From positions 1-6,884 of the forward strand of contig JALGVQ010000153.1 in assembly GCA_025774615.1 (NCBI GenBank): a stretch of DNA of 6,884 nucleotides, written 5' to 3'. Positions within the stretch are counted from its first letter, which is position 1; each line of letters opens with the position of its first letter. Origin of the DNA: a bacterium. Its GTDB lineage: Bacteria > Blakebacterota > Blakebacteria > Blakebacterales > Blakebacteraceae. The translations under genes were made by a program, and so were the position numbers. Positions 3-6,884 of the stretch are shown piece by piece. The notes beneath the pieces were generated by a model, which was not told where the DNA came from, did no database searches, and was given only the letters and a program-made list of their open reading frames with translations.

Positions 3-287
3 GATCTGGATGCGGTAGAGCATGAAGCAATATGGAATGAGCAGGAGAACCAGGTTGAGTTGTACGCCCGGTTCACCGCTCCGCAGGAGATCCGGGTGGA
101 TCCTGCCGGCGAGTCCTTCTCCTTCGATACCGGTGACCGGGTGCTGCTTGAGATCAGTCGCAAGTTTATCCTCCCCGACCTGGAACGTTCTCTCGAACGC
201 TTCGGCCTCCAGAGTCAGGCGGTTTACACCGACGAGAGGGATTGGTTCGCGCTCCTGCTGCTCCGGAAGGTGAGACCGGGTGACTGA
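3..287 (+). CDS. egtD: L-histidine N-alpha-methyltransferase (EgtD-type), C-terminal part, 5' end outside window
   Basis: Partial gene: the reading frame is open from base 3 to a TGA at 285-287, giving the last 94 residues. EgtD uses S-adenosylmethionine to trimethylate the alpha-amino group of histidine to hercynine, the first step of ergothioneine synthesis, in the cytoplasm. The fragment begins DLDAVEHEAIWNEQENQVEL, matching the family's conserved FEHxAxWN region and the following Glu-rich strand. Further on is LLEISRKF (bases 144-167). Its E and S (bases 150-152 and 156-158) align with the Glu282/Ser284 pair that contacts the substrate in the mycobacterial enzyme, which supports histidine rather than another amino acid as substrate. 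The end, TDERDWFALLLLRK, is the usual family C-terminus. The SAM-binding fold lies outside the window and could not be checked. The gene overlaps the next by 8 bases, so the two are almost certainly co-transcribed. A broader DUF2260-type amino-acid betaine methyltransferase is the main alternative. Confidence 0.85.
   Translation, partial: DLDAVEHEAIWNEQENQVELYARFTAPQEIRVDPAGESFSFDTGDRVLLEISRKFILPDLERSLERFGLQSQAVYTDERDWFALLLLRKVRPGD
267..273 (+). promoter_or_regulatory. Ribosome binding site of the Mo-oxidoreductase/desulfurase gene
   Basis: AAGGTGA, a good match to the 3' part of the Shine-Dalgarno consensus AAGGAGGTGA, ends 6 bases before the GTG at 280. It lies inside the end of the methyltransferase gene. 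It decides the start: the in-frame TGA at 271-273 blocks any earlier start, and GTG 280 is the first start codon after it. The site sits within the last codons of the upstream gene, so translation of the two genes is probably coupled. Confidence 0.7.
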
Positions 288-3200
288 ACAGGATGGGCCG
301 AGCGAGGTGAAGCGCGAGACCCGGGATGGGCTGTGCGGGATCTGTCCCGCCGGCTGCTGGGTCCGGATCACCCTCGAGAATGGTCGGCTGGTTGATATCG
401 AACCGCAGCCTGACCACCCACTGGGGATGATCTGCACCATCGGCCAGCACGCTCCTCAGATCGTCCATGATCCCGACCGTATACAGACCCCGTTGAGACG
501 AGCGGGTCCGAAAGGTTCTCTCGAGTTCGAACCGATAAGCTGGGATGAGGCGTATGAGACCATCAGCGAACGGTTCACCAGCCTCAAGGCGGAATACGGC
601 CCGGAGGTAATCGCCATCTACACCGGTCGCGGCAGTTTCGACATGGCCATGTGCGACCTGCTGCAGCCGGCGGAGGCGGCAGTCTCGAGCGCCTCGAACA
701 TCCTCTTCCCCTTCGGTTCACCCAATACCCTCGGAGTGGGCGCCCTCTGTTACGTCTCCTTCGCCATGATCGCCCCCCACGTGACCATGGGGGAGATGCT
801 CATTACCATGGACACTGATGTCGATCAGTCGGAACTGATTGTGCTGTGGGGAGCCAATCCCGCTACCGACTCACCTCCATCGCTCCACCATCGCGTCCTG
901 AGGGCACGGGAGCGGGGAGCGGATGTGGTGGCCATCGATCCCCGACGTACAGCGACTGCCAGACAGACTGACGCCGAATGGATCGGGATACGGCCGGGCA
1001 CCGACGGCGCCCTTGCCCTGGGCATGATCAACGTCCTCATCGAGGAAGAGCTGTACGACGAGGGCTTTGTGCGCGACTGGACGGTCGGGTTCGGGGAACT
1101 GAGCCAGATGACACAGCACTACCGGCCGGAGGTTGTGGAATCGATAACCGGTGTGCCGGCGGCGACGGTCGTGGATCTGGCCCGGCGCCTCGCCGCGGCG
1201 CGCGGCGCCTCTCCGGTCATGTACACAGGACTCGAGTACTCCGACAGCGGTGTCCAGGCGATCCGGGCCGTGTTCGTCCTCTGGGCGCTGGCGGGACAGC
1301 TCGATGTTCCCGGTGGGCTCGTCTTTCAGATGAAGGAGAACCAGTTCCCGCAGAACCGGAGCCACCTGATCCCCAATCCCGATCCACGCAAGGCTCCTGG
1401 ACGTGACCGGTTCCCGATCTACAGCGAGTATCGAGGGGAATCACACGCCATAGCGTTACCCGACGCAGTATTGCGGGGGGTTCCCTATCAGATCAGGGCC
1501 CTCATCATCCTGGGGGGCTCGATCATCACTTCATGGCCACGGCCCGAAGTGTGGCGCGAAACACTCGGGGCGCTCGACTTTCTGGTGACCGTCGACAGGT
1601 ATCTCACCGCCGATGCCGCTTATGCCGACATCGTGCTCCCGGCGACGACGATGTTCGAGATCACTTCCTTCATGCGGTACGGTCCACTCTTCAAGATCAG
1701 GGAGAAACTGATCGAACCGGTGAGTGAGGCCAGGAACGATTTCCTGATCCTGACCGAGCTGGCCGATCGTCTGGGCTATGGTCATCTCTACCCACGGAAT
1801 GAAGAGGAGATCCTCGAGCGGGCGCTCGAAGACTCTCCCTGGACAGTGGCTGAAGTCCGCGAGGCAGGAGGTTCGGTCCAGGTCCCGACGGTCATGATGG
1901 AATACAGGAAGTGGGAGAAAGGACGGCTCCGGCGGGACGGGAAGCCGGGATTCGATACCCCGAGCGGGAAATTCGAGATCGCATCCTCGATCCTGGCCGA
2001 ACACGGGTATGATCCGTTGCCGGTCTACACCGAACCGGCCGAGGGGCCGCTGGCCAACCGGGAGCTTGCGGAGCGGTTTCCACTGGTGCTCAACACCGGC
2101 GGACGCACCCCCTTCGACTTCCGCAGCCAGCATCACGGTGTATCAGGTCTCAGGGAGAAGCATCCGGATCCTACCGTGAGCATGAACCACCTTGATGCCG
2201 CCGATCGCGGGATCGGGGAGGGGGATCTGGTGGAGGTCGTCTCGCCGCGGGGACGGGTCCGGTATCGGGCCATGGTGACAGAGAACATGGTTCGCGGGGC
2301 AGTGGACGCCAGCCAGGGGGGTGGAGGACCGCTCGGCTCGAAGGCCTGGCAGGAGTGCAACGTCAACGACCTGACCGATCTTCAGCGCCACGATCCCATC
2401 AGCGGCTTCCCGGTCTACAAGTCCCTGCTCTGTGAGATCGATAAGGTAGGAGCAGGCTCCGCGTCGTCGATCATCCAGGGTGGTGAACATGATGATCTGG
2501 AAGCAGAGGATGAGAGTCTCAAACCCTCCGAACCACCACGGATGATCTATCTCGACCACAACGCTACTACCGCGATCCACCCAGAAGTGCTGGAAGCCAT
2601 GCTTCCCGCGCTCGCGGAGGACAGTTGGGGTAATCCCTCGAGCATCTACCAGAAGGGCAGTCACGTGAAGGCCGCTGTGGAAAGGGCCAGGCGCACGGTC
2701 GCGCAGTTGGTGGGCTGCACCGCTCGCAGGATCACTTTCACCGGAAGTGGTTCTGAAGCGAACAACATGGCGATCAAGGGTATGGCGCTTGCCGTGCCCC
2801 GTGGACGGCACATCATCACCTCCACGATCGAACATCCGGCGGTATTGCAGACCTGCCTCGCACTCGAGTCGGCAGGATACGAGATCACCCGTCTGCCGGT
2901 GGGTCGGGACGGTTTGATCGATCCTGAAGCCTTCAGTGACGCCCTGCGTTCTGATACCACCCTGGCCACGATCATGTTCGCCAACAACGAAGTCGGTTCG
3001 GTGCAGCCGATCTCGCGGATGTCAGCGATCGCACGGGAGAAGGGTGTGCCATTCCATACAGACGCTGTCCAGGCGCTGGGGAAGGTCCCGCTCGACATGG
3101 ATGGGCTGGGTGTCGATATGGCATCGTTCTCTGCCCACAAGATCCAGGGGCCGAAAGGTGTTGGAGCACTGTACATCCGGGCCGGTGTGGAACTCTCTCC

Positions 3201-3702
3201 ACTGGTGCATGGGGGAGGACAGGAGCGGGGCATGCGCGCCGGCACCGAGAATGTGGCCGGGATCATCGGTTTCGGGAAAGCCGGTGAACTTGCGCAGCGG
3301 CGTCTCTACGCTGATGCGATGAATGAAGTCGAACGACTGCGGGATCGGCTGGAAGAGGGAGTTCTCGATCTGGTGCCGGAGGCGAAACGGAATGGTTCTG
3401 CGACCTCATGCCTGCCGAACACGCTGAATATGACCCTGCCCGGCATCAGAGGTGAATCACTCGTCCTGGCCCTGGATCCGCTTGGAGTTTTCTTCTCCTC
3501 CGGATCAGCCTGCAAGTCGGGTGATCCCGATCCCTCCCACGTATTGCTCGCCATCGGTCTGAGTGTGGATGATGCCCACTGCTCGGTACGATTCTCCCTC
3601 GGTCCTGATCTCTCCGAGGAAGATATCGACATCACTCTGGAGCGTCTTGAACAGACACTGAACGATACCATGAGCGCGGTGCGTTTCGTTGGCTGCCGCT
3701 GA
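280..3702 (+). CDS. Fusion of bis-pterin molybdenum oxidoreductase and cysteine desulfurase; candidate oxygen-independent ergothioneine synthase
   Basis: One uninterrupted frame of 1140 residues starting at GTG 280. Residues 19-52 hold C19-x2-C22-x3-C26-x25-C52, the 4Fe-4S motif of the DMSO-reductase superfamily. The molybdopterin oxidoreductase domain follows, with GSPN at 146-149 and C157 placed as the likely Mo/W ligand, as in polysulfide and thiosulfate reductases and formate dehydrogenases; WGANP and DPRRT follow. The dinucleotide-binding domain is about 600-722. After a Ser/Gly- and acid-rich linker (about 722-753), residues 755-1140 form a NifS/IscS-type desulfurase: YLDHNATT near 757, GSGSEANN at 822-829, H852, D928, Q931, PLP lysine K954 in SAHK, and persulfide cysteine C1078 in SSGSAC. 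Its length (386) is close to that of free-standing enzymes. There is no Tat or other signal peptide, so it is cytoplasmic. Beside a hercynine-making methyltransferase, I infer transfer of cysteine-derived sulfur to hercynine. The desulfurase could instead only sulfurate the Mo site. Domains are certain; the overall reaction is inferred. Confidence 0.93.
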   Translation: MTEQDGPSEVKRETRDGLCGICPAGCWVRITLENGRLVDIEPQPDHPLGMICTIGQHAPQIVHDPDRIQTPLRRAGPKGSLEFEPISWDEAYETISERFTSLKAEYGPEVIAIYTGRGSFDMAMCDLLQPAEAAVSSASNILFPFGSPNTLGVGALCYVSFAMIAPHVTMGEMLITMDTDVDQSELIVLWGANPATDSPPSLHHRVLRARERGADVVAIDPRRTATARQTDAEWIGIRPGTDGALALGMINVLIEEELYDEGFVRDWTVGFGELSQMTQHYRPEVVESITGVPAATVVDLARRLAAARGASPVMYTGLEYSDSGVQAIRAVFVLWALAGQLDVPGGLVFQMKENQFPQNRSHLIPNPDPRKAPGRDRFPIYSEYRGESHAIALPDAVLRGVPYQIRALIILGGSIITSWPRPEVWRETLGALDFLVTVDRYLTADAAYADIVLPATTMFEITSFMRYGPLFKIREKLIEPVSEARNDFLILTELADRLGYGHLYPRNEEEILERALEDSPWTVAEVREAGGSVQVPTVMMEYRKWEKGRLRRDGKPGFDTPSGKFEIASSILAEHGYDPLPVYTEPAEGPLANRELAERFPLVLNTGGRTPFDFRSQHHGVSGLREKHPDPTVSMNHLDAADRGIGEGDLVEVVSPRGRVRYRAMVTENMVRGAVDASQGGGGPLGSKAWQECNVNDLTDLQRHDPISGFPVYKSLLCEIDKVGAGSASSIIQGGEHDDLEAEDESLKPSEPPRMIYLDHNATTAIHPEVLEAMLPALAEDSWGNPSSIYQKGSHVKAAVERARRTVAQLVGCTARRITFTGSGSEANNMAIKGMALAVPRGRHIITSTIEHPAVLQTCLALESAGYEITRLPVGRDGLIDPEAFSDALRSDTTLATIMFANNEVGSVQPISRMSAIAREKGVPFHTDAVQALGKVPLDMDGLGVDMASFSAHKIQGPKGVGALYIRAGVELSPLVHGGGQERGMRAGTENVAGIIGFGKAGELAQRRLYADAMNEVERLRDRLEEGVLDLVPEAKRNGSATSCLPNTLNMTLPGIRGESLVLALDPLGVFFSSGSACKSGDPDPSHVLLAIGLSVDDAHCSVRFSLGPDLSEEDIDITLERLEQTLNDTMSAVRFVGCR
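2443..2541 (+). other. Inter-domain linker of the fusion protein
   Basis: Residues 722-754 join the molybdopterin dinucleotide-binding domain to the desulfurase. The stretch is first small and polar (Gly, Ala, Ser), then acidic (HDDLEAEDES), then Pro-rich just before MIYLDHNATT. It looks flexible and unstructured. There is no stop codon and no slippery run here. ATG 2542 at the start of the desulfurase part has no Shine-Dalgarno sequence before it (upstream is ccaccacgg), so separate internal translation of the desulfurase looks unlikely. Confidence 0.7.
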
Positions 3703-3799: not shown

Positions 3800-3800
3800 A
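3795..3800 (+). promoter_or_regulatory. Weak ribosome binding site deciding the first permease start
   Basis: ACAGGA ends 5 bases before ATG 3806. An ATG at 3800 in the same frame overlaps this element and so would have no usable ribosome binding site. ATG 3806 also gives MHDLFQDLRFALR, the way ADOP proteins usually begin. I therefore prefer 3806, although the alternative adds only two residues. Confidence 0.5.
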
Positions 3801-3805
3801 TGAAC

Positions 3806-6214
3806 ATGCACGATCTATTCCAGGATCTCAGGTTCGCGCTGAGAACACTTCGCAAGCGGCCTGATTTCACCGCCGTGGCTCTCATCACTCTGGCTCTCGG
3901 TATCGGAGCCAACTCAGCCATCTTCAGCGTGGTACACACCGTCCTGCTGCAGCCGCTTCCCTTCGAGGAACCCGACCGCCTGGTGCAGGTATGGGAATCA
4001 AGGGTCGATCGCGGCTGGGATCGCGCCTCGGTCGCCCCGGGGAACTTCTGGGATCTCAAGGAGATGAATCGGACCTTCGAGGATCTCGGACTGTTCTCAG
4101 GAGCGAGCATGAACCTCACCGGCAGTGAGTTCCCCGAACGGATAAGTGCCGGACGGGTATCGGCCGGTTTCTTCACGATCCTTGGAGTACAGCCGGTGAT
4201 GGGGCGCACTCTTCTGGCTGGTGAGGATGATCCTGGCCAGGACACCCAGGTGGCCATGCTTGGGCACAGTTTCTGGCAGTCCCATTACGGTGGTGACATC
4301 AGGGTCCTCGATCAGGCACTGATGCTGGATGGAAGAAGTTATACGATCGTCGGTGTGCTCCCCCGGGGTGAACCGTGGTTGGACTTTGGTGATGTCTTCA
4401 TCCCCTACGTCCGGAACCCTGACGCGACCAGGAGTAGTTTCGAAGTAGCCGTGATCGGTCGCCTCTCACCCGGAGTGGCATTTGATACAGCTCTTGCCGA
4501 TCTGAACTCGATCGCCGGACAGCTTGCCGAGACCTATCCCGAGCAACTGGAAGGTATCGGGATAGCCATGGGATCGTCGAGTGAATGGGTGGCCGATGAC
4601 AATCTGCGGCTGGCGCTTACGGTCCTCTTTGCTGCCGTCGGACTGCTTCTGCTGATCGCCTGTGTGAACATCGCCAACCTGCTCATGGCCCGGGCGACGG
4701 CTCGCCACCGGGAGATGGCGCTGCGCGCCGCTCTTGGTGCCGGTCGTTCCCGGATCATCCGACAGGTGATCACCGAGAGTCTGCTCCTGGGCATCATCGG
4801 ATCAGGCCTCGGGCTCCTGCTCGCCAGTGGTGCAGTGAGGCTTATCCAGGTCCTTGAACCTGCCGGTATACCGAGGATCGCCGATATCGGACTCAACGGA
4901 ACAGTGCTCGGTTTCACGGCCCTGATCGGACTTCTTGCAGGAGTGATCTCAGGACTCATACCAGCTCTGCAGATCCCCTACGCCAGTTCCGCCACAGCAC
5001 TGCGTTCAGGTGACCGTTCATCTACCGGATCACGTTCGGCCAAACGTCTCAGAAACATTCTGGTCGGTGCTGAGGTCGCTCTCTCCCTGATCCTGCTGAT
5101 CGGGGCAGGGCTGCTGGTGCGCAGTTTCAGCGAATTGCTGGGAGTGGATCAGGGATTCGCTACTGAGAACCGCCTCGTCTTCTCGGTAACCATCCCAGAT
5201 GACATGGACGGCGACCGACACAGCACGATACGGAATGACTATCTAGACCGGATCAAAGCGATTCCGCAGGTACTCTCTGCCGCCGCGGTGAATGTCCGGC
5301 CGCTCATCGACGGCAGTACCGGTATGGGGATTCTGCCGCAGGGACATCCCCCGGAAGCAGAAGCTGATATACCGTGGGCCAGCTGGCGGATGATAACGCC
5401 CGATTATTTCGAATCGATCGGAATCCCGCTGATCCGGGGTCGGACATTCAACGAGGACGAGCGGATCGCTGAGCCGTGGCGGGTGATCATCAGTGAACGA
5501 CTGGCTGACGAGATGTGGCCGGGAGAGGATCCGATCGGCCGTACAGCACTCCTCTGGAAGGGGCAGGGTGACCGGCCGGCGGAGGTGATCGGTGTGGTCG
5601 GCAACATGACCGAACGCGGACTCGCTGATGGTCCCACATTGGCTACGTATGTTCCTTATCTTGCTGCAGCCTGGTCGCCGATGCACCTCGTCATCCACAC
5701 CACCGCCGCGCCTGAGGCGATCGTGCCAGATCTGCGTGCGATCCTTGCCGATATCCATCCCGACCTGCCGATCTCGAACATCACCAACATGGATGAGATG
5801 GTGGGTCTCTCTGTGGCCGCGCGCCGGTTCAACATGCTGCTGTTGACGATCTTCTCGGGAGTAGCGCTCCTTCTGGCCCTGGCCGGGATCTTCGGGGTGC
5901 AGTCTTACTCTGTTACGAGCCAGACGGCTGAGATCGGTATCCGTGTGGCACTCGGCGCGAACAGGAGACAGGTGCTCGGACACATCATCCGCGGTGGAAT
6001 GAGACCGACACTCATCGGAGTAGTGATGGGGATCATCGGTGCTCTACTCCTCTCACGCCTGATGGCCAGCCTGCTGTTCGGCATAAGGGCAGGTGATCCA
6101 TTGACCTACCTGGCAGTGGCACTGGTCCTGACCTTTGCTGCGTACATTTCATGTTATCTACCAGCACGGAGGGCTCTGAAGATCGATCCGGTGGTCGCTC
6201 TCAGGCAGGAGTAG
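3806..6214 (+). CDS. ADOP-type ABC transporter permease with duplicated MacB/FtsX units, no ATPase domain
   Basis: About 802 residues, a normal length for the acidobacterial duplicated orphan permease family. The N-terminus DLRFALRTLRKRPDF, followed by the membrane segment around ITLALGIGANSAIFS, is the family signature. Numbering from ATG 3800, predicted membrane segments are near 24-48, 271-297, 320-345, 365-388, 420-443, 679-703, 737-760 and 768-790. Two periplasmic MacB-type core regions (about 50-265 and 450-675) separate them, giving two FtsX-like units. Both halves carry the cytoplasmic loop motif: MALRAALGAGRSRIIRQV in the first and IGIRVALGANRRQVLGHI in the second. There is no Walker A or B motif, so any ATPase partner is encoded elsewhere. 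By analogy with MacB it sits in the inner membrane and may couple ATP hydrolysis to periplasmic work such as efflux. Its substrate cannot be read from sequence. It ends in ARRALKIDPVVALRQE, the common family tail, so it is complete. Confidence 0.92.
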   Translation: MHDLFQDLRFALRTLRKRPDFTAVALITLALGIGANSAIFSVVHTVLLQPLPFEEPDRLVQVWESRVDRGWDRASVAPGNFWDLKEMNRTFEDLGLFSGASMNLTGSEFPERISAGRVSAGFFTILGVQPVMGRTLLAGEDDPGQDTQVAMLGHSFWQSHYGGDIRVLDQALMLDGRSYTIVGVLPRGEPWLDFGDVFIPYVRNPDATRSSFEVAVIGRLSPGVAFDTALADLNSIAGQLAETYPEQLEGIGIAMGSSSEWVADDNLRLALTVLFAAVGLLLLIACVNIANLLMARATARHREMALRAALGAGRSRIIRQVITESLLLGIIGSGLGLLLASGAVRLIQVLEPAGIPRIADIGLNGTVLGFTALIGLLAGVISGLIPALQIPYASSATALRSGDRSSTGSRSAKRLRNILVGAEVALSLILLIGAGLLVRSFSELLGVDQGFATENRLVFSVTIPDDMDGDRHSTIRNDYLDRIKAIPQVLSAAAVNVRPLIDGSTGMGILPQGHPPEAEADIPWASWRMITPDYFESIGIPLIRGRTFNEDERIAEPWRVIISERLADEMWPGEDPIGRTALLWKGQGDRPAEVIGVVGNMTERGLADGPTLATYVPYLAAAWSPMHLVIHTTAAPEAIVPDLRAILADIHPDLPISNITNMDEMVGLSVAARRFNMLLLTIFSGVALLLALAGIFGVQSYSVTSQTAEIGIRVALGANRRQVLGHIIRGGMRPTLIGVVMGIIGALLLSRLMASLLFGIRAGDPLTYLAVALVLTFAAYISCYLPARRALKIDPVVALRQE

Positions 6215-6278: not shown

Positions 6279-6884
6279 ATGTCACGGCAATCAGAGGCAA
6301 CTGAAGGATCAAAATCCAATACTCTTGCGATATTTTTCGATTCACTTCTGCATGATCTGCGCTTTGCCCTGAGACAACTGAAACGTTCCTCAGGCTTTAC
6401 CACCATTATCGTACTGACACTGGCAGTCGGGATCGGCGCCAATATCGCCATCTTCAGCGTGATGAAGGGTTTGATCCTCAACCCCTTAATCTATCCCGAC
6501 CCGGATGAGGTGGTTGCAATCTGGGGCTATGAGGCCGGGAGTCTGGGTTACCAGCCCTTCTCAGGACCTGATTTTCTGGATGTGCGGGAGCAGAACTCCA
6601 CGTTCGAAGAAATAGGTGTGTATACCTGGCGCTGGTTGAATCTGAGTGGCGATAACGAACCGGAACGTGTTTTCACTGCTGTCTGTACTCCAGGACTTCT
6701 GGAGGCACTGGCGGTTCAGCCTGCCATGGGTCGGCTTTTCACAGAACGCGACGAGCGAGAGGGATCTGAGAAAGTCGTGATTCTGAGTAATGCGCTCTGG
6801 AAGGACCGGTACGCAGGAGATCCGGACGTCATTGGAAAAATGATCACGATCAACCGTGAGGATTACGCGATAGTTGGAATAATG
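6279..6884 (+). CDS. Second ADOP-type permease, N-terminal 202 residues, 3' end outside window
   Basis: The frame is open from ATG 6279 to the window edge. Residues 25-40 (HDLRFALRQLKRSSGF) and the first membrane segment (about 41-67, with TLAVGIGANIAIFSVM) match the start of the complete permease to the left. The following region aligns with it as a MacB-type periplasmic domain: YPDPDEVVAIW, then STFEEIGVYT, LAVQPAMGRLF and YAIVGIM. It is therefore a paralogue, but a divergent one, so the duplication is old. Residues 1-24 (MSRQSEATEGSKSNTLAIFF and on) are an extra N-terminal extension not seen in the neighbour, encoded by noticeably AT-richer DNA. It may be a real extension, or the true start may be a rare codon further in, but the ribosome binding site favours ATG 6279. 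The function is probably the same unknown MacB-like transport or mechanotransmission role. Confidence 0.88.
   Translation, partial: MSRQSEATEGSKSNTLAIFFDSLLHDLRFALRQLKRSSGFTTIIVLTLAVGIGANIAIFSVMKGLILNPLIYPDPDEVVAIWGYEAGSLGYQPFSGPDFLDVREQNSTFEEIGVYTWRWLNLSGDNEPERVFTAVCTPGLLEALAVQPAMGRLFTERDEREGSEKVVILSNALWKDRYAGDPDVIGKMITINREDYAIVGIM

Follow-up and report, generated by a model that had tools for sequence, protein, structure and literature searches.

The window, i.e. the whole stretch of 6,884 nucleotides that we analysed, represents the entire contig C222 of an assembly of 324 contigs (3.3 Mb, 82% complete, 1% contaminated). It contains the end of an egtD gene followed by a gene whose product we assigned to MES, the O2-free ergothioneine synthase described in Caldithrix abyssi (CaMES; Beliaeva & Seebeck 2022, PMC9516567) and reviewed in PMC10903977. 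The features of this locus are as follows:

3..287, + strand: 3' end of egtD, coding for the C-terminal 94 aa of a histidine N-alpha-trimethyltransferase; frame open at the left edge of the window
150-158, + strand: E-x-S motif of EgtD (E50/S52 of the fragment), aligning with the EVS of known EgtDs
280..3702, + strand: predicted MES, metallopterin-dependent ergothioneine synthase, 1140 aa, GTG start, one open frame
280..2433, + strand: N-terminal bis-MGD Mo/W module, residues 1-718 (Pfam domains)
334..435, + strand: Fe4S4 motif C19/C22/C26/C52 (Pfam Molybdop_Fe4S4)
748..750, + strand: C157, predicted protein ligand of Mo/W, in the motif GVGALCYVS; equivalent to C153 of CaMES
2545..3702, + strand: C-terminal NifS/IscS-type cysteine desulfurase, residues 756-1140 (PF00266, TIGR03402)
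3139..3141, + strand: K954, PLP Schiff-base lysine; equivalent to K952 of CaMES
3511..3513, + strand: C1078, first persulfide cysteine, in the desulfurase loop SSGSACKSG; equivalent to C1074 of CaMES
3694..3696, + strand: C1139, C-terminal relay cysteine; equivalent to C1135 of CaMES

Two tandem ADOP-family duplicated permeases (MacB_PCD/FtsX) are encoded at positions 3800-6214 and 6279-6884, the second being cut by the contig end. They are not obviously linked to ergothioneine.

The identity of the truncated first gene as the C-terminus of a histidine methyltransferase with its E-x-S motif, as proposed in the original prediction, was confirmed by matches of bases 3-287 to Pfam PF10017 (E=4e-17, profile 217-304) and NCBIfam egtD TIGR03438 (E=1e-16), and by alignment with EgtD crystal structures (E=2e-8). 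Contig C208 ends with the N-terminal part of egtD (6384-7243; PF10017, E=5e-78, profile 2-239). As the last 76 bases of C208 are 91% identical to the first 76 bases of the window, the two contigs most likely abut, the assembly having most likely been broken by strain variation. In a genome of the same genus (G001), egtD and the MES gene are also side by side, and the MES protein is 89% identical over residues 9-271.

The MES frame overlaps that of egtD by 8 bases. Its product matches the Pfam families Molybdop_Fe4S4 (2e-5, over the cut-off), Molybdopterin (1e-39) and Molydop_binding (2e-19), and the same chain comprises a complete class-V cysteine desulfurase (NifS model, 1.6e-142). Thus, a single protein overlapping egtD does harbour both a whole bis-pterin Mo/W module and a whole cysteine desulfurase, as had been read from the DNA. 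The closest solved structure to the N-terminal half is that of acetylene hydratase (PDB 2e7z, E=1e-62), which shares with the N-terminal module of MES the Fe4S4 cluster, the bis-MGD cofactor and a Cys ligand, but hydrates acetylene and has no desulfurase domain. In a search of plasmids, no match reached 80% coverage of the fusion.

All the catalytic residues named for CaMES (PMC9516567) are present in the protein of the window; we equated them by the numbers, spacing and motifs given in that paper. C153, K952, C1074 and C1135 are each essential in CaMES: the C153S variant is almost inactive, the K952A substitution abolishes synthesis, and the C1074S and C1135S variants are both inactive (PMC9516567). 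In contrast, C1097 of CaMES, which corresponds to the dispensable position C1101 of the window's protein, is non-essential, with a two-fold effect (PMC9516567). The two proteins share their domain order, Fe4S4 cysteines, metal-ligand Cys, PLP Lys, relay cysteines and adjoining egtD gene, and they are similar in length (about 1136 aa for CaMES versus 1140 aa). They differ in that they come from different organisms and have diverged in sequence, and the activity of the window's protein is a prediction.

Four divergent MES homologues of the same architecture produce ergothioneine from hercynine in vivo, in E. coli (PMC9516567). This supports the earlier proposal that hercynine and cysteine are converted to ergothioneine and alanine without O2, and we also agree that the overall balance is redox-neutral. 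We are highly confident that the window carries an egtD-MES operon, which would operate by the relay mechanism proposed for this reaction, and we found no evidence against an MES function of the window's protein. An alternative is that the protein is a conventional Mo/W oxidoreductase with no relation to ergothioneine, in which the fused desulfurase serves only to mature the enzyme's own cofactor. Among general models, that of the alpha subunit of formate dehydrogenase indeed gives one of the best matches to the N-terminal half (7e-85), albeit far below its cut-off. Nevertheless, the presence of every MES residue, including C1139 at the extreme C-terminus, the linkage of MES to egtD and the behaviour of the K952A variant of CaMES, the metal site of which remains active and still swaps sulfur between ergothioneine and hercynine (PMC9516567), make this explanation extremely improbable.

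If the window's protein works as an ergothioneine synthase, EgtD would trimethylate histidine to hercynine (TMH), and the PLP desulfurase of MES would transfer the sulfur of L-cysteine to C1078 as a persulfide. C1139 would then relay the sulfur from C1078 to the C157-ligated Mo/W atom of the bis-MGD cofactor, so that a metal sulfido group is formed. This metal-bound sulfur would be attacked by C2 of the hercynine imidazole ring and ergothioneine would leave, after which the reduced metal would be resulfurated. The net reaction would be hercynine + Cys -> ergothioneine + Ala, with neither O2 nor an outside electron acceptor. The original prediction likewise had a persulfide on C1078, but it had the metal activate the C2-H bond, whereas in the published proposal the imidazole attacks a terminal Mo(VI)=S ligand, and a relay of Cys persulfides restores the sulfur on the metal (PMC9516567). 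Both versions of this step are proposals.

The MES route was described already in 2022, and the protein of the window is another member rather than a new route. With it, this third route to ergothioneine gains one more genome, from a bacterial lineage about which little is known. It also shows that the MES route is recognizable from sequence alone, as its known function was deduced that way in the original prediction. The two other routes share some features with it. The EgtB sulfoxide synthase pathway has the same hercynine substrate and EgtD step, but it needs iron and O2. The EanB rhodanese, like MES, transfers sulfur to hercynine independently of O2; however, it belongs to another protein family, uses polysulfide as its source and has no metallopterin.

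We looked for these other enzymes in the window's own genome by family searches, the results of which are not final for a genome that is 82% complete. No EgtB was detected in it, with TIGR03440 matches that are weak (best E=1.6e-8), whereas the EgtBs that exceed the TIGR03440 cut-off score 1e-129 or better. Two FGE-sulfatase proteins were considered as EgtB candidates, one being a fusion with a NapC-type cytochrome and the other resembling a lipoprotein, and both were discarded on their weak TIGR03440 E values. At L025:10-1590 (contig C240 of the same genome, G000), a multiheme cytochrome c of the NapC/NirT type and an FGE-sulfatase (formylglycine-generating enzyme-like) domain are joined in one protein. 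Similarly, no EanB-like protein was found among the rhodaneses of this 82% complete genome, which we judged by size and architecture; the candidates that we rejected are a fusion to ArsR (214 aa) and an exported protein made up of two repeats. The genome as assembled is thus in line with the expectation that egtB and eanB would be missing elsewhere in it. No COX1-type (heme-copper) oxidase was found in it either, at the same 82% completeness. A protein weakly similar to cytochrome bd subunit I, with a C-terminal cytochrome c domain, is encoded next to a cytochrome b gene (L110:841-2286, contig C63 of G000), and it may be a quinol enzyme working without oxygen. When its RNA polymerase beta subunit was compared with those of 30 named MES carriers, the closest were from two Zixiibacteriota genomes (65% identity) and two other bins (64%), distances too great for a firm placement in a phylum.

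We next extended the analysis to MES homologues in general. An alignment of the metal module was used to scan one genome per species (84,980 species), which yielded 80 best loci; four loci from a genome search were added to these for the analysis of architectures (n=84). The full-length fusion is coded in one frame at 76 of these 84 loci. At the other eight, three run off the contig, two are split between frames and two have no desulfurase; in the last one the match ends at residue 1086, in an over-long frame. As 76 full-length sequences share this architecture, the fusion is not due to chance. All 76 retain the Fe4S4 cysteines, the Cys ligand of the metal, the PLP Lys and C1078, and C1139 is present in all 73 of the 76 sequences that align there; two of the remaining three run off the contig and L076 ends early. 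The sole key position that is replaced is that of C1101 (2/76), with Ser in L053 and Arg in L105. The homologue labelled Caldithrix abyssi (L081) is found in the same clade of fusions.

The gene egtD is located within 3.5 kb of the MES gene at 60 of the 80 best loci, mostly directly adjacent or overlapping. Nine loci have sufficient flanking sequence on either side but lack egtD, and 11 are too short to judge; the linkage thus amounts to 60 of 69 informative loci, and the concern that homologues might be mostly unlinked to egtD was not borne out. The nine roomy loci could be taken to mean that the fusion thiolates another imidazole or heterocycle, the hercynine made by EgtD serving something else, all the more as the substrate of the window's protein is predicted by homology. 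Nevertheless, egtD is found elsewhere in eight of these nine genomes, the egtD-MES operon is retained in the same-genus genome G001, and the homologues that make ergothioneine from hercynine are four divergent ones. We thus consider that the fusion is very unlikely to act on another substrate.

At two loci, L107:6965-9151 (Methanophagales) and L101:374-2536, the MES metal module is found without a fused desulfurase. In L107, egtD is directly downstream of the metal module. The two sequences are nested separately inside the fused MES proteins in the tree, which suggests two losses of the desulfurase, although mis-assembly of the bins may also account for its absence. Sulfur transfer in CaMES is obligately intramolecular, within one chain only (PMC9516567); in contrast, in the desulfurase-free lineages sulfur would come in trans.

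Most of the MES carrier genomes are metagenome bins. A match over the cut-off to PF00115, a family of oxygen or nitric-oxide reductases that also takes in fragments, was obtained in 44 of the 49 other MES genomes, and many of these proteins span the whole model (E<1e-110). Geobacteraceae are known carriers of such oxidases. These matches show that many carriers have oxygen- or NO-reduction genes, not that each of them respires O2. In addition, a bona fide EgtB (TIGR03440, over the curated cut-off) is encoded in nine of the 49 genomes, two of which are those of the isolates Anaeromyxobacter terrae SG22 and Thiorhodococcus minor DSM 11518. The egtD gene adjoins egtB in five of these nine genomes with both enzymes, and at L054:5886-14402 the gene order is egtD-MES-ABC gene-egtB, with egtD, MES and egtB within 9 kb.

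MES homologues have been stated to occur in anaerobes only (PMC9516567), and our survey suggests that this statement should be relaxed. That the range of MES extends beyond strict anaerobes, that EgtB and MES apparently share one EgtD in at least nine genomes and that two lineages lost the desulfurase and would receive sulfur in trans is a combined reading that we regard as evenly balanced. The isolates with both pathways are where oxic versus anoxic use of each route can be tested.

Finally, two Mo-only sequences of genome G050 (L014 and L016, ~50% identical to MES) were set aside, as they form long branches that do not belong to the MES clade. Neither a desulfurase nor egtD is in view at these loci, and they may represent a sister family with another substrate.
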